Shown here: positions 7,744 through 38,733 of the stretch, piece by piece
Position numbering within the stretch: the first letter of the stretch is position 1
Layout: every line of letters begins with the position of its first letter
Source of the DNA: Acholeplasmatales bacterium
GTDB lineage: Bacteria > Bacillota_I > Bacilli_A > Acholeplasmatales > Anaeroplasmataceae
DNA: 52,739 bases
Assembly: GCA_024697825.1 (NCBI GenBank)
Contig: JAILEP010000009.1
Span: forward strand, 1-52,739
Reading direction: 5' to 3'
Translations under genes and position numbers: made by a program
Notes under the pieces: model-generated
What the model was told of the DNA's origin: nothing
The model's input: the letters and a program-made list of their open reading frames with translations, nothing else
Databases searched by the model: none

Positions 7744-7754
7744 TGCAAGTGTAA

Positions 7755-7926
7755 AAATATTAGAGGTAGCAATGCAAATGAGTAATGTATAGAGAAGGCA
7801 TTCGATGAAATACATGAAAGGTAACCATTGCCGAATAGTAAATAGAGGCATTTATTTATTATGGGGATATAGGAAAGACTTATATCACTCCTACAATGTT
7901 GTAGAGGGGCTAAATTATTTATTCTT
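7755..7926 (+). promoter_or_regulatory. Lysine riboswitch (L box)
   Basis: Metabolite-sensing aptamer of the lysine class. The conserved segments appear in the right order: AGAGGTAGC at 7762-7770, GAGTAATG near 7780, AGAAGGCA at 7793-7800, GAAAGGTAACC at 7816-7826, TTGCCGAA at 7828-7835, the long P5-like arm, then GTAGAGGGGCTAAA closing P1 near 7911-7925. The downstream genes are lysA, dapF, dapA and dapB, the usual targets. An intrinsic terminator at 7944-7976 points to transcription attenuation, with lysine binding favouring termination. The 281-nt gap between degV and lysA is fully explained by promoter, aptamer and terminator. Confidence 0.93.
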
Positions 7927-7988: not shown

Positions 7989-9224
7989 ATGAAAATTGCA
8001 GGCGTCGACGTTAAGGATTTAAAAAATGAGTATGGTACACCACTTTATATTTATGATGTGGAGCATCTAAAGAGAAATATGGAAGGTTACCTAAATTATT
8101 TCAAGTCTAACGAATTTGAAACTGAGGTATTATATGCATCTAAGGCATTTAATGTTAAGGAAATGGTAAGACTTGTTAAGAGTGAGGGAATGAGCCTTGA
8201 CTGTGTTTCTGAAGGAGAAATCTATACAGCTTTAGCAGTTGGATTTGATCCTGCAAAGATTTACTTCCATGGTAATAATAAGTCATATGCTGAATTAGAA
8301 TATGCTATTTCAAACAATATTGGTACAATCGTTGCTGATAATGTTATGGAGCTTGAGGTAATTGAAGAGATTGCTGCAAAGCTTAATAAGCATGTCAATG
8401 TTATGTTTAGAATGAATGTAGGTGTTGATGCACATACTCATAAATTCATTGTAACTGCACATGTTGATTCAAAGTTCGGTGTATTATATGGCAGTGATGA
8501 TTATAAGAAGATTTTAGAAATCTTTAAGAAGTCAAAGAATATGACATTCTTAGGATTCCATTCTCACATTGGCTCTCAGATTTTTGATCTAAATGCCTTC
8601 CAGGCAGCAGCTGAAAAGGTAATCGGCTATTGTAAGGATTTTGATTACCCTCTAGTAATCAATTTAGGTGGAGGCTACGCAGTACATTATACTGATGCTG
8701 ATGCACCTATCCCATTTGATAAGGTATCAAAGACATTAATTGATACAGTAGAAAAGGAATTAAAGAAGCAGAATGTAAAGATTAAAAAGCTTGCTATTGA
8801 ACCAGGTAGAAGTATTGTAGCTGAAGCTGGTTATACATTATATACAGTAGGCTTTACTAAAAAGACACCTAATAAGGAATATTATTTCATTGATGGTGGT
8901 ATGACAGATAATATCCGTCCTGCATTATATCAGGCTAAGTATGAGGCTGATATCGTTGGTAAGGAAAACGATAAGAAGGATCATATTGTAACAGTAGCTG
9001 GTAAGTGCTGTGAATCAGGAGATTTAATTATCGAAGGCTGTGCTCTTCCTAAGGCAGTTCCTGGTGATTTATTAATCACTTATACAACTGGTGCTTATGG
9101 ATATTCAATGGGCAGCAATTATAACAAGGCATTAACTCCAGCAGTTGTCTTTGTTGAAAATGGTAAGTCTAAGCTTGCTGTTAGACGTATGACATTTGAG
9201 GAGCTAATCGAAAGAGAGGTATAA
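7989..9224 (+). CDS. lysA: Diaminopimelate decarboxylase
   Basis: PLP enzyme that decarboxylates meso-diaminopimelate to L-lysine. 411 residues, family length. The PLP lysine is in VLYASKAFNV, the glycine-rich phosphate-binding turn is NLGGGYAV, the dimer-interface Cys is in GKCCESGD, and the C-terminal tyrosine loop is TTGAYGYSMGSNYN. The ribosome site GAGGAGG sits directly after the riboswitch terminator. It is first in a four-gene operon; dapF begins 3 nt downstream. Control by lysine through the upstream riboswitch is strongly implied. Confidence 0.97.
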   Translation: MKIAGVDVKDLKNEYGTPLYIYDVEHLKRNMEGYLNYFKSNEFETEVLYASKAFNVKEMVRLVKSEGMSLDCVSEGEIYTALAVGFDPAKIYFHGNNKSYAELEYAISNNIGTIVADNVMELEVIEEIAAKLNKHVNVMFRMNVGVDAHTHKFIVTAHVDSKFGVLYGSDDYKKILEIFKKSKNMTFLGFHSHIGSQIFDLNAFQAAAEKVIGYCKDFDYPLVINLGGGYAVHYTDADAPIPFDKVSKTLIDTVEKELKKQNVKIKKLAIEPGRSIVAEAGYTLYTVGFTKKTPNKEYYFIDGGMTDNIRPALYQAKYEADIVGKENDKKDHIVTVAGKCCESGDLIIEGCALPKAVPGDLLITYTTGAYGYSMGSNYNKALTPAVVFVENGKSKLAVRRMTFEELIEREV

Positions 9225-9227
9225 TTA

Positions 9228-10040
9228 GTGGAAGTTACTAAGATGCATTGCTCAGGCAATGACTTCTGTGTAATACCTTTCAAAGAAAAAACAGACAATA
9301 AAAGCTTAGCAGCAAAGCTTTGTAATAGAAAACTTGGTGTTGGGGCTGATGGTATGATAGTTGTTAAAACTGAACCAAGACCTGAAATGTTTTTCTATAA
9401 TGCTGATGGTACTCAAGCTTCAGTTTCTGGAAATGGCTTAATATGTTTTACAAGATATTGCTATGAGCATGGTCTTGTAAAGCATGGCAAGCTCGATATA
9501 TTAACTGGTACTGGTCCTGTTAGTGTAGAAATAGTAAATGGCGAATCGTTTGAATGTAAGGTTACAATTGGGAAACCTCTTTTTGCCAATTCTATGATTT
9601 ATGCAACAGACCCGGTTGATTGCTTTGGGAGAATGATTGATATTGATGGGGTAAAGGTAAATATTTATTCATTCTTTATGGGTACTATTCACACAGTAAT
9701 CTTTGTTGATAGCTTAGATGATGAGGTATTATCAATCGCAGAGAAGATTCATTCCTATAAGCTTTTTGCAAAGAAAACAAATGTCGACTTTGTTAAAATA
9801 AGAAAGAAGACAGAAATGGATGTTAAGACCTATGAACGCGGTGTCGGTTGGACATATGCAAGTGGTACTGGCTGTTGTGCAGCAGTAGTTGCAGCAAATA
9901 AGCTTGGTCTTGGCAGCACTAAGGTAAGATGTAACCTTGAGTTAGGTCATCTTGATATTGATATTAATAAGAAGGGTATTGTTTCAATGACAGGCCCTGC
10001 TGTTAAATTATTTACATGTAATTATGAGGAGGAAATGTAA
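9228..10040 (+). CDS. dapF: DapF-family protein lacking the canonical catalytic residues
   Basis: By position and overall sequence this is the diaminopimelate epimerase homologue (270 residues, GTG start with AGAGAGG upstream). It keeps the family landmarks: MHCSGNDF near the start, NADGTQASVSGNG, the YERG motif, and MTGPAV at the end. The known catalytic residues are not kept. The first cysteine (Cys73 in the Haemophilus enzyme, usually in MCGNG) is Ser67. The second (Cys217, usually in ACGTG) is Ser212. The glutamate of the GAGET motif is Trp208. The GNPH motif reads MGTIHT. A normal two-cysteine racemisation mechanism is therefore not possible as known. It may be inactive, use another mechanism, or act on another substrate. 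The operon context still argues for a role in lysine or DAP metabolism. Confidence 0.75.
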   Translation: MEVTKMHCSGNDFCVIPFKEKTDNKSLAAKLCNRKLGVGADGMIVVKTEPRPEMFFYNADGTQASVSGNGLICFTRYCYEHGLVKHGKLDILTGTGPVSVEIVNGESFECKVTIGKPLFANSMIYATDPVDCFGRMIDIDGVKVNIYSFFMGTIHTVIFVDSLDDEVLSIAEKIHSYKLFAKKTNVDFVKIRKKTEMDVKTYERGVGWTYASGTGCCAAVVAANKLGLGSTKVRCNLELGHLDIDINKKGIVSMTGPAVKLFTCNYEEEM

Positions 10041-10042
10041 TT

Positions 10043-10924
10043 ATGTTAAGAGGTAGTATTGTAGCATTAGTAACCCCATTTAACGCAGATGGAAGTGTTA
10101 ATTTCGAAGAGCTAGGCAAGTTATTAGATTATCATTGTGAGAACAATACAGGTGGTATTGTTATCCTTGGTACAACAGGTGAGGCTTCAACCTTATCATT
10201 TGAAGAGGAGGCTGAGGTTGTAAAGTTCTCTATTGAACGTGTGAACCATAGAGTTCCAGTTATCGTAGGTTCTGGTTCTAATGAAACAGCTAAGGCTGTA
10301 ACATATTCAAAGAAGTATTCTGAAATGGGGGCTGATTATGTTTTAGTAATCACTCCATATTATAATAAGACTAATGAGACTGGTCTTATTAAGCATTTTG
10401 AGGCAGTTGCAAATACATCAAAGTGTCCAGTAATTATGTATAATGTTCCAGGTAGAACTGGTATGAGCATTTCTATTACAGCTATGGAAAAGCTTGCAAA
10501 GCACCCTAATATTTATGGTATTAAGGAAGCATCTGGTAATATGAGCTATACTGCAAAGGTAGCAAGACTTTTAGGTCCTGATTTCCATATGTTCTCTGGT
10601 AATGATGATATTATCGTACCTATGATGTCTGTAGGTGCTGAGGGTGTTATTTCAGTATTAGCTAACGTTGCACCTAAGCAGACTGCAAAGATGTGTGAGC
10701 TATGCTTTGATGGTAAGTATACAGAGGCTATTAAGCTTCAGAATGACCTATTACCTTTAACTAATGATTTATTCTTAGAGGTAAACCCTATTCCAGTTAA
10801 GGAAGCTATGAATTACATGGGCTTCAATGTTGGTGGCTATAGAGCTCCACTTGATACAATGGATAAGGCAAAGGCAGAAATCCTTCACAAGGAAATTGAT
10901 AAGAATAAGGAGATTATTTTCTAA
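10043..10924 (+). CDS. dapA: 4-hydroxy-tetrahydrodipicolinate synthase
   Basis: Condenses pyruvate with aspartate semialdehyde, the committed step to DAP and lysine. 293 residues, standard TIM-barrel length. Schiff-base lysine is Lys161 in GIKEASG; the catalytic Tyr is in MYNVPGRTG; the threonine pair is in LGTTGEAS. AGGAGG precedes the ATG by 10 nt within the tail of the dapF homologue. The stop overlaps the dapB start (TAATG), which implies translational coupling. Confidence 0.97.
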   Translation: MLRGSIVALVTPFNADGSVNFEELGKLLDYHCENNTGGIVILGTTGEASTLSFEEEAEVVKFSIERVNHRVPVIVGSGSNETAKAVTYSKKYSEMGADYVLVITPYYNKTNETGLIKHFEAVANTSKCPVIMYNVPGRTGMSISITAMEKLAKHPNIYGIKEASGNMSYTAKVARLLGPDFHMFSGNDDIIVPMMSVGAEGVISVLANVAPKQTAKMCELCFDGKYTEAIKLQNDLLPLTNDLFLEVNPIPVKEAMNYMGFNVGGYRAPLDTMDKAKAEILHKEIDKNKEIIF

Positions 10925-11634
10925 TGAAAGCAGCAGTAGTTGGTTATGGAGCAATGGGTAAGATTCTATCAGAAATGCTAGGAGATGACCTATTCTTAAA
11001 TGTGGCTCCTGAATGTGAGCACAAGAATTTTGATAAGGTAGAAAAGCCAGAGGTTATTATTGACTTTTCAAATCCTGCAAACCTTGATATGATTTATGAT
11101 TATGTTAAGGCAACTAAGACTCCAGTTGTATTTGCAACAACAGGCTATACACCTGAACAGTTAGCTAAGATTGATGAATTATCAAAGGTAGCTCCAGTAT
11201 TAAGAAGTGCTAACTTTTCACTTGGTGTGATTGTACTAAATAGATTAGTAAAGGAAGTAACACCTTTACTTGAGGGCTATGATATTGAAATCGTAGAGGC
11301 TCATCATAATAAGAAGGTAGATGCACCTTCTGGTACAGCTAAGATGCTATTAAAGAGCGCTCAGGATGCAACAGGCTATGATGCTAAGCCAGGAAGAGAT
11401 GGCTACTGCCCACGTGCTAAGAACGAAATTGGTGTTCACGCAGTTAGAGGTGGTACAATCGTTGGTGAGCATGAGGTAATGTATTGTGGTACTGATGAGG
11501 TTATCACATTAAAGCATTCAGCTCAGTCAAAGAAGATTTTCGCTAATGGCGCAATCAAGGCTGCAAAGTGGTTAAAGGATCAAAAACCAGGCTTCTATGA
11601 CATGGAAGATGTCCTATTTGGAGCTAATAAGTAG
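10924..11634 (+). CDS. dapB: 4-hydroxy-tetrahydrodipicolinate reductase
   Basis: NAD(P)H-dependent reductase that follows DapA. 236 residues, the shorter form common in Firmicutes rather than the roughly 270 of E. coli. N-terminal nucleotide fold AVVGYGAMGK; catalytic block IVEAHHNKKVDAPSGTA with the His pair and Lys; RGGTIVGEHEV near the C-terminus. The ATG overlaps the dapA stop by one base. Later DAP steps such as dapD/dapH, an aminotransferase or a deacylase are not in the window, so the route to DAP in this organism is unresolved. Confidence 0.95.
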   Translation: MKAAVVGYGAMGKILSEMLGDDLFLNVAPECEHKNFDKVEKPEVIIDFSNPANLDMIYDYVKATKTPVVFATTGYTPEQLAKIDELSKVAPVLRSANFSLGVIVLNRLVKEVTPLLEGYDIEIVEAHHNKKVDAPSGTAKMLLKSAQDATGYDAKPGRDGYCPRAKNEIGVHAVRGGTIVGEHEVMYCGTDEVITLKHSAQSKKIFANGAIKAAKWLKDQKPGFYDMEDVLFGANK

Positions 11635-11814: not shown

Positions 11815-12825
11815 ATGAAGACATACAACGTAGGTATTTTAGGCGCAACTGGTGCAGTTGGCCAGGAGATGTTAAAGGTTTTAGGTGAAAGAAATTTCCC
11901 TATTAATGAATTAAGATTATTAGCTTCACCAAGAAGTGTTGGTAAGAAGGTTACGTTCCAAGGTAAGGAATATACAATCCAGCTTGCAGCACATGACGCA
12001 TTTGAAGGCTTAGACATCGTTTTAGGTGCAGCATCTAATGCAGTAGCTAAGGAATATAAGGATGACATCGTAAAGGCAGGAGCTGTATTTATTGATAACT
12101 CTAGTGCATTCAGAATGGACCCAGAAATTCCTCTAGTTGTTCCAGAGATTAATCCTGAAGATATATTTAAGAACAAGGGTGTTATTGCTAACCCTAACTG
12201 TTCTACAATCATCACAGTAGTTGCAGTTAATGCAATTAATAAGCTTTCTAAGATTACAGCTTTGAACGCTGCAACTTACCAGGCTACATCAGGAGCTGGT
12301 GCTGCAGGTCCAGTTGAATTACGTGAAGAAGAGGAAGCATTACTTCATGGTGGTGCTATTGAACCAAAGGTATTCCAGTATCAGATTGCTGAAAATGTAA
12401 TTCCTCATATTGGTTCATTCAATGAGGATGGATATACTACAGAAGAAATGAAGATGCAGAATGAAGGTCGTAAGATCATGCATTTACCTGATTTAAAGGT
12501 AACTTGTACTTGTGTTCGTGTACCAGTAGTTCGTTCTCATTCTATTTGTGTAACTGTTTATACAGAAAAGCCTGTTGAGCTAGATGATGTTAGAAAGGTT
12601 ATTTCTGAAGCTAAGGGTACAGTATTATATGATGTACCAGCTGAAAAGAAGTATCCAATGCCTATCGTTACAAGTGATCAGGATTTAGTATACGTTGGTC
12701 GTATCCGTAAGGATTTAATCCATGAAAATGGTACTACACTTTGGTGTGCAGGCGATCAGGTAAGAAAGGGTGCAGCTACTAACGCAGTTCAGATTGCATT
12801 AGTTTTAGTTGGTTTAGAGGCATAA
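11815..12825 (+). CDS. asd: Aspartate-semialdehyde dehydrogenase
   Basis: Reduces beta-aspartyl phosphate to aspartate semialdehyde with NADPH. 336 residues. NADP-binding GATGAVGQEM at the N-terminus; the nucleophile is Cys129 in NPNCSTI; the later active-site region contains RVPVVRSHS with the catalytic His. ATGAGGAG lies upstream of the ATG. The product feeds dapA and could also feed the carboxyspermidine pathway encoded near 36.3 kb. It is coupled to lysC, which starts 1 nt after the stop. Confidence 0.97.
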   Translation: MKTYNVGILGATGAVGQEMLKVLGERNFPINELRLLASPRSVGKKVTFQGKEYTIQLAAHDAFEGLDIVLGAASNAVAKEYKDDIVKAGAVFIDNSSAFRMDPEIPLVVPEINPEDIFKNKGVIANPNCSTIITVVAVNAINKLSKITALNAATYQATSGAGAAGPVELREEEEALLHGGAIEPKVFQYQIAENVIPHIGSFNEDGYTTEEMKMQNEGRKIMHLPDLKVTCTCVRVPVVRSHSICVTVYTEKPVELDDVRKVISEAKGTVLYDVPAEKKYPMPIVTSDQDLVYVGRIRKDLIHENGTTLWCAGDQVRKGAATNAVQIALVLVGLEA

Positions 12826-12826
12826 T

Positions 12827-14131
12827 ATGTTAAAGGTTGTAAAGTTTGGTGGTAGCTCACTATCTTGTGCTACACAGTTCGAAAAAGTAAAGAATATTGT
12901 TTTAGGCGATTCAACAAGACAGATTGTTGTATGCTCTGCATTAGGTAAGAGAGAAAAGACAGACACTAAAATTACTGACTTATTATTTATCCTACATGCA
13001 CATTTAAAGTATTCAGTTCCTTATGAAGAAATTTGGAATATGATATATGACAGATTCCTAGGCGTACAGGCTGATTTAAATATTTCTTATGACATCAAGA
13101 ATGATCTTGATGCTTTAAAGGGCGAATTAAACAAGAACATTAGCCAGGATTACCTAGTAAGCCGTGGTGAGTTCTTAACATCTAAGCTTATGGCTGCTTA
13201 TTTAGGCTATACATTCGTAGATTCTAAGGATTTATTAAGATATAACTACGATGGTAAGCTAGATGAGGAATTAACAGAAAAGAATGTTAAGCTTGCCTTC
13301 TCTAAGTATGGCAAGATTGTAGTACCAGGTTTCTATGGTGCTTATCCTAATGGTTCTGTAAAGCTTTTATCTAGAGGTGGATCAGATGTTACTGGTTCAA
13401 TCCTAGCTAAGTGCTTAAATGTTTCAGTTTATGAAAACTGGACAGACGTTTCTGGTGTACTTGCATGTGATCCAAGAATCGTTAAGAACCCTCGTGCAAT
13501 TAAGGAAATTACTTACGCTGAATTAAGAGAATTATCTTACATGGGTGCATCAGTACTTCATGAAGAAACTGTATTCCCTGTTCAGGGCTTAAATATTCCT
13601 ATCAATATCAGAAATACAAACGAGCCTGAAAATCCAGGTACAATGATTTTAAATGAATGTACAGATGAAACAAATGTAGTAACTGGTCTTGCGGGTAAGA
13701 AGGATTTCGTTGCCTTCAATATTTATAAGGACCACATGGCTGATAAGGTTGGCTTCCTAAAGTCTGCTTTAGAGGTATTTGAAAAGTATGAAGTATCTGT
13801 TGAACATGTTCCAACTGGTATCGATTCATTCTCAGTTATCGTTTCTGGTGATCAGGTTGACAAGTGCAAGTATGAGCTTGTAACAGAAATCAAGAAGCAG
13901 TTAGACTGTGATGTTGAGGTTGAAACTAACATTGCCTTAGTTGCAATCGTTGGTAGAAATATGGCTAAGAGAAGTGGTGTATGTGGTAAGATCTTCGCTG
14001 CATTAGGTGAGGAAAATATCAATGTTAGACTTCTTGCTCAGGGTCCAAATGAATTAAATATCATTATCGGTGTAAGCCAGAATGATTTCGAAAAGACTCT
14101 TCAGGCATTATACGAAAGCTTAGTTAGATAA
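12827..14131 (+). CDS. lysC: Aspartate kinase
   Basis: Phosphorylates L-aspartate, the first step of the aspartate family. 434 residues. The N-terminal KFGGSSL motif and the SRGGSDVTGS segment are kinase signatures. The C-terminal part contains two ACT domains (for example KVGFLKSALEVFEKYEVSVE and VGRNMAKRSGVCGKIFAALG), the usual feedback site. Which amino acid inhibits it cannot be read from sequence. AGAGG lies 8 nt before the ATG, within the end of asd. Confidence 0.95.
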   Translation: MLKVVKFGGSSLSCATQFEKVKNIVLGDSTRQIVVCSALGKREKTDTKITDLLFILHAHLKYSVPYEEIWNMIYDRFLGVQADLNISYDIKNDLDALKGELNKNISQDYLVSRGEFLTSKLMAAYLGYTFVDSKDLLRYNYDGKLDEELTEKNVKLAFSKYGKIVVPGFYGAYPNGSVKLLSRGGSDVTGSILAKCLNVSVYENWTDVSGVLACDPRIVKNPRAIKEITYAELRELSYMGASVLHEETVFPVQGLNIPINIRNTNEPENPGTMILNECTDETNVVTGLAGKKDFVAFNIYKDHMADKVGFLKSALEVFEKYEVSVEHVPTGIDSFSVIVSGDQVDKCKYELVTEIKKQLDCDVEVETNIALVAIVGRNMAKRSGVCGKIFAALGEENINVRLLAQGPNELNIIIGVSQNDFEKTLQALYESLVR

Positions 14132-14690: not shown

Positions 14691-14716
14691 AAAAAAGGCT
14701 GATTAATCAGCCTTTT
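14691..14716 (-). terminator. Terminator of the ATP-grasp gene, containing its stop codon
   Basis: A 24-bp perfect palindrome (14693-14716) whose arms are AAAAGGCTGATT and its complement. The minus-strand stop codon (14703-14705) is inside the stem, and A-runs at 14691-14696 provide the U-tract for minus-strand transcripts. Confidence 0.85.
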
Positions 14717-15896
14717 CATGAACCATGTCTCTAAATTTTTCTAAATCCTCAATGAATTCAAATCTTGCAATAAAGAATTCATTACCCATTGCCCCAGATA
14801 GAACATCACTCATTCTACCATGCATCTGAATATAAGGGTATAGCTTATGAATATCATCATAGGTATATTTATATTTGATTCTATCACGTCTACCACAGTA
14901 GATACAGTAATACTTAGGTAGGGTTAAATCTACATTTACAATCTTATTATATGCCATTACATCCGCATAAATCTGATATGTATCTACAGACTGACCAAAG
15001 TTGATCATATCTGGAGTGAATCCTCCAGGTGGACGCATGTTAACCTCTAGGGCTACAATATCACCAATTTTACCAAGACCCTTCTTAGCCTTAGTTAGAC
15101 GGAAGAACTCTAAATGGAAATATCTAGATTTAATATTGAATGCCTTTAATACCTTTTGACCAATTTCTCTAATGTCATCAGGTACTTCCTTATTAATATA
15201 ATATGAGAATTCAAGATTTTCATTTACAATATCCATAATTGAAGGTGGGAATACCTCGTTATCACAGAATACTACATTTGAATCTGCATCACAGATTCCA
15301 TCAAATGAAGTAATCTTACCAGTGATAAATTCCTCCATAATATATGGAACCTGGAATCCACTTTCATGGAATTTCTTTAAATCAGTTTTATTAGTGATTT
15401 TATAAGTTGCAGAAGCGCCAACTCCTACATTAGGCTTAACAACTACTGGGAAGCCAACCTCTTCCTCAATAAATTTTAAGTCCTCTTCATAATTAGTAAC
15501 GAATTTATATCTAGCTACTGGTACACCAGCCTTGATATAGAAATCCTTCATATCACTCTTTGATGTAAATGATATAACATCACTTGTCTTAGCTCCTGTA
15601 ATATTGAAATCAGTTCTAAGTCTAGCATCCTGTCTTAGCCAGTATTCATTGTTTGATTCTAAGAAATCAATCTTACCATATTTGAAGGCAAAGAAGGCAA
15701 CTGCTCGATATACCTCATCATAGCTTTCAAGTGAATTAACCTTATAATATTCAGTTAAGGAATCCTTAACCTCCTTATCAAGCTCATTGTATGGTGTATC
15801 ACCAATACCTAGAACATTGAATTTATTCTTTTTTAATCTGCTGCAAAAATTGTAATAATTTTTTGGGAAAGCAGGAGATATGAATACAAAGTTCAT
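14703..15896 (-). CDS. Orphan ATP-grasp domain enzyme
   Basis: 397 residues. The N-terminal pre-ATP-grasp fold begins with a FISPAFPKNYYNFCSRLKK segment. The central ATP-grasp domain has FPVVVKPNVGVGASATYKI (ATP-binding lysine and glycine loop), PYIMEEFITG, and the metal-binding LEVNMRPPGGFTPD. Such enzymes ligate a carboxylate to an amine or thiol through an acyl phosphate. General resemblance is to the carbamoyl-phosphate synthase and biotin carboxylase superfamily, but it lacks their other domains and the substrate is unknown. The start at 15896 is supported by AGAGGTGAT on the minus strand. Single gene with a TATAAT-like -10 at 15918-15923 (minus strand). No biosynthetic partner is adjacent. 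Confidence 0.8.
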   Translation of the reverse strand: MNFVFISPAFPKNYYNFCSRLKKNKFNVLGIGDTPYNELDKEVKDSLTEYYKVNSLESYDEVYRAVAFFAFKYGKIDFLESNNEYWLRQDARLRTDFNITGAKTSDVISFTSKSDMKDFYIKAGVPVARYKFVTNYEEDLKFIEEEVGFPVVVKPNVGVGASATYKITNKTDLKKFHESGFQVPYIMEEFITGKITSFDGICDADSNVVFCDNEVFPPSIMDIVNENLEFSYYINKEVPDDIREIGQKVLKAFNIKSRYFHLEFFRLTKAKKGLGKIGDIVALEVNMRPPGGFTPDMINFGQSVDTYQIYADVMAYNKIVNVDLTLPKYYCIYCGRRDRIKYKYTYDDIHKLYPYIQMHGRMSDVLSGAMGNEFFIARFEFIEDLEKFRDMVHEKAD

Positions 15897-15978
15897 ATAA
15901 ATCACCTCTTTAGTTGAATTATATCACAAAGAAGGTTTTTGTTATAGTTATTATCTTTAAATAAATGGCTTTTTCAAG

Positions 15979-37528: not shown

Positions 37529-38733
37529 TGATAAAGGATTTAAGACCACCATTCGTTAGATTAAATGATTTTAATCCAGACGAATTATTTAAAGATTTAA
37601 AAACTCCTTGTTATGTAATTGATGAGAAGGGGTTAATATATGATGGTGAAATATTAAAAAGAGTAAGTGAGGAAAGTGGTGCGAGAATTCTTCTTGCCCA
37701 AAAGGCCTTTTCTAATTTTAATCTTTATAATGTTATTGAACCATATATTTATGGTACAGAGGCATCAGGACTATATGAGGCAAGGCTTGGAAGAGAGGAA
37801 ATGCCAAATAAGGAGGTTCATGTTTTCTGTGCAGCCTATAGGGATGATGAAATTGATGAGGTTATAAGCTACGCTGACCATATCATTTTTAATTCGATTA
37901 ACCAGCTAAAGAAATTTGGTTCTAGGGTAAAAGAGGCTGGTAAAGAGGTTGGTGTTAGAATCAATCCTGAATATTCAACTCAGCCAGGTCATGAAATTTA
38001 TGATCCATGCTCAAGTGGGTCAAGGCTTGGTATTACTATCGCTGATTTTAAGGATAATATGACTCCTGAGCTTTTAGGACTATTAGATGGAATTCATTTC
38101 CATACCCTATGCCAACAGAATTCAGATGATTTAGAGGCTACATTAAATGTTGTAATTGAGAAATTTGGTTCTTATTTTAAGGACCTAAAATGGATTAATT
38201 TTGGTGGTGGACACCATATTACAAGATTTGATTATGATATTGATAGATTAATTAGATGTATTAAGCTAGTTAAGGATAAATATAATGTTGAGGTTTATTT
38301 AGAACCAGGAGAGGCAGTTGTTTTAAATGCCGGCTTCTTATTAACTAGAGTGTTAGATACATTTAATAAGAATGGTCAAAAATTTGCCATAGTAGATACA
38401 TCTGCAGCTTGTCATTTCCCAGATGTAATTGAAATGCCATTTTTACCACCATTATATAAGGCAGATTTAGAAAGTAATAATATCGATTATAGAATTGGTT
38501 GTCCTACATGCCTTACAGGTGATGTAATTGGTAATTACAAATTTGATTCTGATTTAAAGGAAAATGAAATGCTAATATTTGGAGATATGGCACTTTATAC
38601 AACTTGTAAGAACAATACCTTTAATGGTATGCCACTTCCAGATATTTATGTTCTACATAATGATAATTCAATTGAAAAGCTTACAAGCTTTGGATATAAT
38701 GATTTTAAATATCGTTTAGGAAAGATGAATTAA
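37528..38733 (+). CDS. nspC: Carboxynorspermidine/carboxyspermidine decarboxylase
   Basis: PLP-dependent decarboxylase of the alanine-racemase-fold group, giving spermidine or norspermidine. 401 residues. PLP lysine in ILLAQKAFSNFN; HFHTLCQQ, NFGGGHHITR and the EPGEAVV block bind the cofactor; CPTCLTGDVIG carries the conserved Cys/Asp region and DMALYTTCKNNTFNG ends the active site. The start overlaps the dehydrogenase stop (TAATG), so the two are coupled. A terminator follows at the stop codon. Confidence 0.94.
   Translation: MIKDLRPPFVRLNDFNPDELFKDLKTPCYVIDEKGLIYDGEILKRVSEESGARILLAQKAFSNFNLYNVIEPYIYGTEASGLYEARLGREEMPNKEVHVFCAAYRDDEIDEVISYADHIIFNSINQLKKFGSRVKEAGKEVGVRINPEYSTQPGHEIYDPCSSGSRLGITIADFKDNMTPELLGLLDGIHFHTLCQQNSDDLEATLNVVIEKFGSYFKDLKWINFGGGHHITRFDYDIDRLIRCIKLVKDKYNVEVYLEPGEAVVLNAGFLLTRVLDTFNKNGQKFAIVDTSAACHFPDVIEMPFLPPLYKADLESNNIDYRIGCPTCLTGDVIGNYKFDSDLKENEMLIFGDMALYTTCKNNTFNGMPLPDIYVLHNDNSIEKLTSFGYNDFKYRLGKMN

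Follow-up and report, generated by a model that had tools for sequence, protein, structure and literature searches.

The window, as we call the whole stretch of 52,739 nucleotides analysed here, contains a lysine-synthesis operon in which profile searches placed a lysine riboswitch before lysA-dapF-dapA-dapB, followed by asd-lysC (Table 1). The second gene had drawn attention in a sequence-only reading as an intact frame within a lysine-riboswitch operon, and on both counts that description was borne out by the uninterrupted open reading frame, the RF00168 match and the gene order. Its product, here DapF1, starts with a GTG codon 3 nt after lysA and its stop lies 2 nt before dapA.

DapF1 passes both the NCBIfam equivalog model TIGR00652 (191.6 bits, cut-off 114.65) and the Pfam model DAP_epimerase (PF01678; 135.8 bits, cut-off 34.7). 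A Pfam scan allowing E values up to 10 returned DAP_epimerase alone, with no match of DapF1 to the PhzF family. The AF2 model, with a pLDDT of 94.5, shows the two-domain DapF fold, and its best Foldseek matches were DapF structures; the comparison with 9mro gave an E value of 5e-30 and a TM score of 0.91. Full-length homology, fold, placement in a lysine operon and the retained equivalents of Glu208-Arg209 and His159 thus liken the window copy to DapF, whereas the absence of both catalytic cysteines, and the loss of binding residues as well in its relatives, sets it apart.

Among the neighbours, DapB is 236 aa long and its match to TIGR00036 begins at model position 62. Adjoining the operon, on the minus strand at 14703-15905, is an ATP-grasp ligase-like protein that matches no assigned family.

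Table 1. Features of the lysine operon and residues of DapF1 within the window
Feature	Position	Strand	Basis or remark
Lysine riboswitch (RF00168)	7753..7920	+	Upstream of lysA; cmscan 79.2 bits, gathering 30; match to the full-length model
lysA, meso-DAP decarboxylase	7989..9224	+	TIGR01048, 442.8 bits, cut-off 297.9
DapF1, Cys-less DapF homologue, predicted pseudoenzyme, 270 aa	9228..10040	+	TIGR00652; AF2; Cys pair lost
Ser67 codon TCT, Cys73 position	9426..9428	+	Codon reading and alignment
Phe133-Gly134-Arg135 of DapF1	9624..9632	+	Invariant in 15/15 Cys-less congeners; outside the active-site motifs
Glu203-Arg204 (= Glu208-Arg209)	9834..9839	+	Kept in the window copy; alignment
Trp208 (E. 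coli DapF position 213)	9849..9851	+	Natural variant, also in Cys/Cys relatives
Ser212 codon AGT, Cys217 position	9861..9863	+	Codon reading and alignment
dapA	10043..10924	+	TIGR00674, 328.3 bits
dapB, short form	10924..11634	+	Profile match and operon comparison
asd	11815..12825	+	NF011456, 430.7 bits
lysC, aspartate kinase	12827..14131	+	NF006540, 493.4 bits, cut-off 434

Active-site residues in DapF1 and its relatives

Alignment to E. coli DapF (5ygu) confirmed that Cys73 and Cys217 are replaced by Ser67 and Ser212, whose codons are each 1 base away from a Cys codon. The accompanying claim that the catalytic glutamate is lost proved wrong. The catalytic residue is Glu208, the E of YERG, and corresponds to the intact Glu203 beside Arg204; the GAGET Glu is a distinct residue, 213 in E. 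coli numbering. Relatives that have both cysteines vary freely at position 213 (W, P, I, L, A, E and others), so that Trp208 is no defect, and GTIH, also mistaken for damage, is the usual motif in Cys/Cys members of the subfamily. As both are present in Cys/Cys relatives, we rejected them as marks of inactivation. The Thr at the N157 position is likewise shared between the window copy and its Cys/Cys relatives. Asn11, Asn58, His155, Asn185, Glu203 and Arg204 are retained (E. coli Asn11, Asn64, His159, Asn190, Glu208 and Arg209), making the window copy the mildest case, in which the two cysteines alone are gone among the key residues. Since the other catalytic and binding residues are in place, DapF1 of the window may have weak residual activity. 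Substrate binding would also be possible in this species, though not across the Cys-less group.

We compared relatives from Anaeroplasmataceae and Acholeplasmatales MAGs, Candidatus Avacholeplasma among them, and found one or both cysteines missing in 14 further congeneric species and in 1 species of another genus. The loss is therefore neither chance nor a sequencing error at the two codons. In the 15 Cys-less congeners, the first site holds Ser in 5, Asn in 6 and Asp in 4, and the second Ser in 10, Asn in 2 and Thr in 2, with one gapped; Ser/Ser/Trp is thus not conserved in close relatives. The more diverged Cys-less copies have also suffered erosion of substrate-binding residues. The representative of the other genus (G149, L233:2024-2812) carries C73S, N64D and R209K, keeps Cys217 and has already lost dapH; judged from its sequence, it is an early-stage case, and it is the sole genome seen in this second genus with a damaged DapF. 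A natural half-replaced DapF also occurs beyond the bacterial family studied, in a Methanophagales archaeon (L140:6001-6807), where Ser replaces the first cysteine (MSGNG) and the second is kept (SCGTG).

Loss of dapH and other routes to meso-DAP

The dapH gene belongs to the acetylase branch, which yields LL-DAP, the substrate of DapF. It was present in 17/17 genomes with a Cys/Cys operonic DapF, and above the model cut-off in 0/16 genomes whose operonic DapF had lost one or both cysteines. Within the genus (27 genomes), dapH exceeded the cut-off in G005, G007, G014 and G021 only, which are exactly the four congeners with a Cys/Cys operonic DapF. In Cys/Cys genomes the gene lies directly 3' of dapB, with the exception of G152, where it directly follows dapF, and the ancestral operon is shown to have been lysA-dapF-dapA-dapB-dapH-asd-lysC. 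No dapH above the cut-off was found in the genome of the window, and none follows dapB there. We predicted in advance that G149 would be without dapH and that its Cys/Cys congeners would have it, and both predictions held. Parsimony on a species tree rooted on another genus requires at least four independent losses, and all three independent contrasts on well-supported branches agree, none being against. As three contrasts are too few for a significant sign test, the argument leans on an association without exceptions, on the prediction that was borne out and on the logic of the pathway.

Two other drivers were considered and set aside. MurE is missing, at the model cut-off, in the genome of the window, where its absence fits a wall-less cell, and in most Cys-less species, and a published survey found peptidoglycan genes in only 40-60% of Anaeroplasmataceae genomes (PMC10868615). 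However, G016 and G020 have MurE and yet a Cys-less DapF, and loss of dapH fits better than loss of the cell wall. The presence of Ddh alone does not explain the pattern either, as Cys/Cys species have Ddh too; Ddh is for this reason permissive of cysteine loss, not its cause.

The suggestion that the cell reaches meso-DAP by another route, such as DAP dehydrogenase, is well supported. A genome search for a second dapF, ddh and dapL found all three: Ddh (G000:C12; 439.9 bits, cut-off 180.6), a second DapF, DapF2 (G000:C32:17403-18227; TIGR00652 284.5 bits), with both cysteines in CGN and ACGTG, and directly after it DapL (481 bits, cut-off 364.7). Given Ddh, and DapL with a canonical DapF2, DapF1 is unnecessary for epimerisation. 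DapL might still supply LL-DAP, and it is accompanied by a DapF2 of its own. The two DapF proteins belong to the same family but are just 30% identical, DapF2 being the canonical Cys/Cys form linked to DapL. A partnership of DapF1 with DapF2 is unlikely as a general rule, G018, G016 and G019 being among the species with the Cys-less copy alone, and several DapL species without DapF2 have no DapF at all.

Selection on the Cys-less proteins

We estimated omega for pairs of close relatives in which both members are Cys-less, with 95% limits from bootstrapping. The values were 0.193 (G015-G004), 0.214 (G003-G040), 0.188 (G040-G042) and 0.209 (G000-G008), and the limits lay within 0.12-0.31. Neutral simulations matched for third-position divergence predicted 19-33% identity and 14-18 stops, whereas the Cys-less pairs show 61-77% identity and 0 stops; together with omega, this rejects neutral decay. 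The close Cys-less pairs also have intact frames and nearly no indels, and across deep divergence the Cys-less proteins keep lengths of 265-271 aa.

Relative to lysA, dapA and dapB, amino-acid change amounts to 2.68x in Cys-less dapF and 1.14x in Cys/Cys dapF, and in lineages that lost dapH the rate of the operonic DapF rises about 2.5-fold. Of the 11 active-site columns that are fixed in Cys/Cys proteins, 1 remained at least 80% conserved, versus 22 of the 52 fixed columns elsewhere, a contrast that is marginal (Fisher p = 0.04). Phe133-Gly134-Arg135 is also found in many Cys/Cys family members and is hence a retained motif, not a new one. In 5 congeners the gene has been cleanly deleted, lysA running straight into dapA, so the genus as a whole does not depend on it, and DapF1 is, as far as these genomes tell, dispensable in some backgrounds.

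Explanations for a maintained DapF1

Essential catalytic residues are gone and purifying selection has continued after their loss, which together characterise a pseudoenzyme. We consider it likely that the operonic DapF1 is dead as a DAP epimerase, was freed by a change in the pathway and is being maintained; catalysis of that reaction is very probably gone. Of the possibilities raised by the sequence-only reading, which spoke of a changed function or a structural remnant, the loss of catalysis is well supported, while "remnant" is too weak a word for a protein under purifying selection. Loss of the dapH branch, and with it of the acetylase route to LL-DAP, would have released the operonic DapF from catalytic constraint, after which one or both cysteines would be lost and the active site would loosen. 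In the genome of the window, meso-DAP can come from Ddh directly and from DapL with the separate, canonical DapF2. Purifying selection continued beyond the loss of catalysis and preserved the fold along with a number of residues outside the active site, DapF1 presumably being kept for a non-catalytic job. As DapF1 is kept between lysA and dapA, that job is most likely tied to lysine synthesis.

The closest parallel is from E. coli, where the DapF(C73&217A) mutant is inactive as an epimerase yet binds and stimulates RppH (PMC4227774), and where RppH binding likewise survives in the dimer-breaking Y268A/R36A form (PMC7144940). Removal of both cysteines can thus leave a DapF with a protein-binding, non-catalytic role, although the E. 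coli case concerns moonlighting by an active enzyme and an engineered mutant, whereas in DapF1 the loss is natural. By this analogy, DapF1 might be a subunit that binds or regulates neighbouring enzymes of the lysine pathway, or a ligand-binding sensor, an assignment that we make tentatively and at somewhat less than even chance. It is about equally conceivable, and again falls a little short of even, that an ancestral bifunctional DapF had a second role that outlived catalysis once the LL-DAP branch was lost, leaving the lysine operon with a protein devoted to non-catalytic work as a subunit, scaffold or ligand sensor. Other relatives have diverged differently: HisR, CntK and O-ureidoserine racemase are cofactor-independent and share the DapF fold, 7vdy matching DapF1 in both sequence and fold, but they kept the cysteines and changed the substrate, whereas DapF1 lost the cysteines. 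Among the papers searched, none describes a naturally occurring DapF pseudoenzyme; PMC11528492 mentions both DapF and a pseudoenzyme and was rejected as a precedent, the pseudoenzyme there being a TrpC-TrpF fusion.

DapF1 could instead be a functionless passenger in slow decay that persists because its place between lysA and dapA makes the frame and translational coupling important. The short gaps on either side in the window (3 and 2 nt), the gradual erosion of the active site, the clean deletions in 5 genomes and an evolution about 2.5x faster than in Cys/Cys DapF relative to the neighbours would all suit this. We nonetheless consider it unlikely, as a mere spacer would preserve frame and not sequence, and an omega of about 0.2 between close Cys-less pairs, with a bootstrap upper bound of 0.31, and the near absence of indels, 0 stops and stable length over deep divergence speak against it; some of the purifying selection could, however, reflect avoidance of misfolding and not function. 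We give still less credence to an enzyme of another kind built on the DapF fold with other residues. PhzF works on this fold by a Cys-independent mechanism and does match DapF1 in fold, so such enzymes are hosted by it, but no new invariant charged residue has arisen in the former active site of the Cys-less set, where the pocket columns are variable.

Only marginally less remote is altered chemistry in which the two serines still provide acid-base catalysis, perhaps slowly or with a substrate that is more acidic. The remainder of the active site is retained in the window copy, the Methanophagales DapF shows that C73S occurs naturally beside a kept second Cys, and single Cys-to-Ser mutants of HisR have a greatly reduced turnover that is not stated to be zero (PMC11602996). 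A conserved Ser/Ser catalyst is nevertheless rejected by the variable replacements, Asn and Asp standing in for serine in sister species that have lost binding residues as well, and an unknown Ser/Ser/Trp mechanism, as had been proposed, is unsupported for the same reasons. Moreover, the LL-DAP branch through dapH is gone wherever cysteines are lost, and DapF1 is not needed for LL-DAP, since several DapL species without DapF2 have no DapF. A sequencing or binning artefact has a negligible probability: the genome of the window is assembled in 142 contigs and its contamination is estimated at 2.96%, but the independent losses at the same operon position in 14 congeneric genomes and 1 of another genus refute it.

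Under the reading of a maintained pseudoenzyme, a core amino-acid enzyme would have become a pseudoenzyme at least four times within one bacterial family, and a correct prediction came from a simple cause in the pathway, the loss of dapH in cells that also have Ddh or DapL to draw on. Among the genomes compared, many related gut bacteria without a cell wall retain a Cys-less DapF in their lysine operon. Curated models label these proteins DAP epimerase, the window copy passing TIGR00652 by a wide margin, and automated pathway reconstruction would therefore misassign LL-DAP epimerisation to them. The group also makes a general question testable, namely whether a non-catalytic DapF role, such as that with RppH in E. 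coli, has been selected after the chemistry was lost.

The survey of DapL loci brought up a further pattern. DapL-carrying genomes of the genus have either DapF2 (10) or a second LysA-like protein (7), never both, and the locus of either is one of nitrogen assimilation (gltB, gltD, glnA and pyrG). The second LysA-like proteins score 277-288 bits to TIGR01048, slightly below the cut-off; examples are L278:16659-17915 (G018) and L279:17230-18489 (G019), and L210:9389-10237 and L282:8826-9671 are examples of DapF2. The second LysA-like protein is a candidate for a decarboxylase using LL-DAP directly, an activity that, if true, would be new. The window itself encodes a further LysA-related PLP decarboxylase at 37564-38664, with 77 bits to TIGR01048, possibly for polyamine synthesis.
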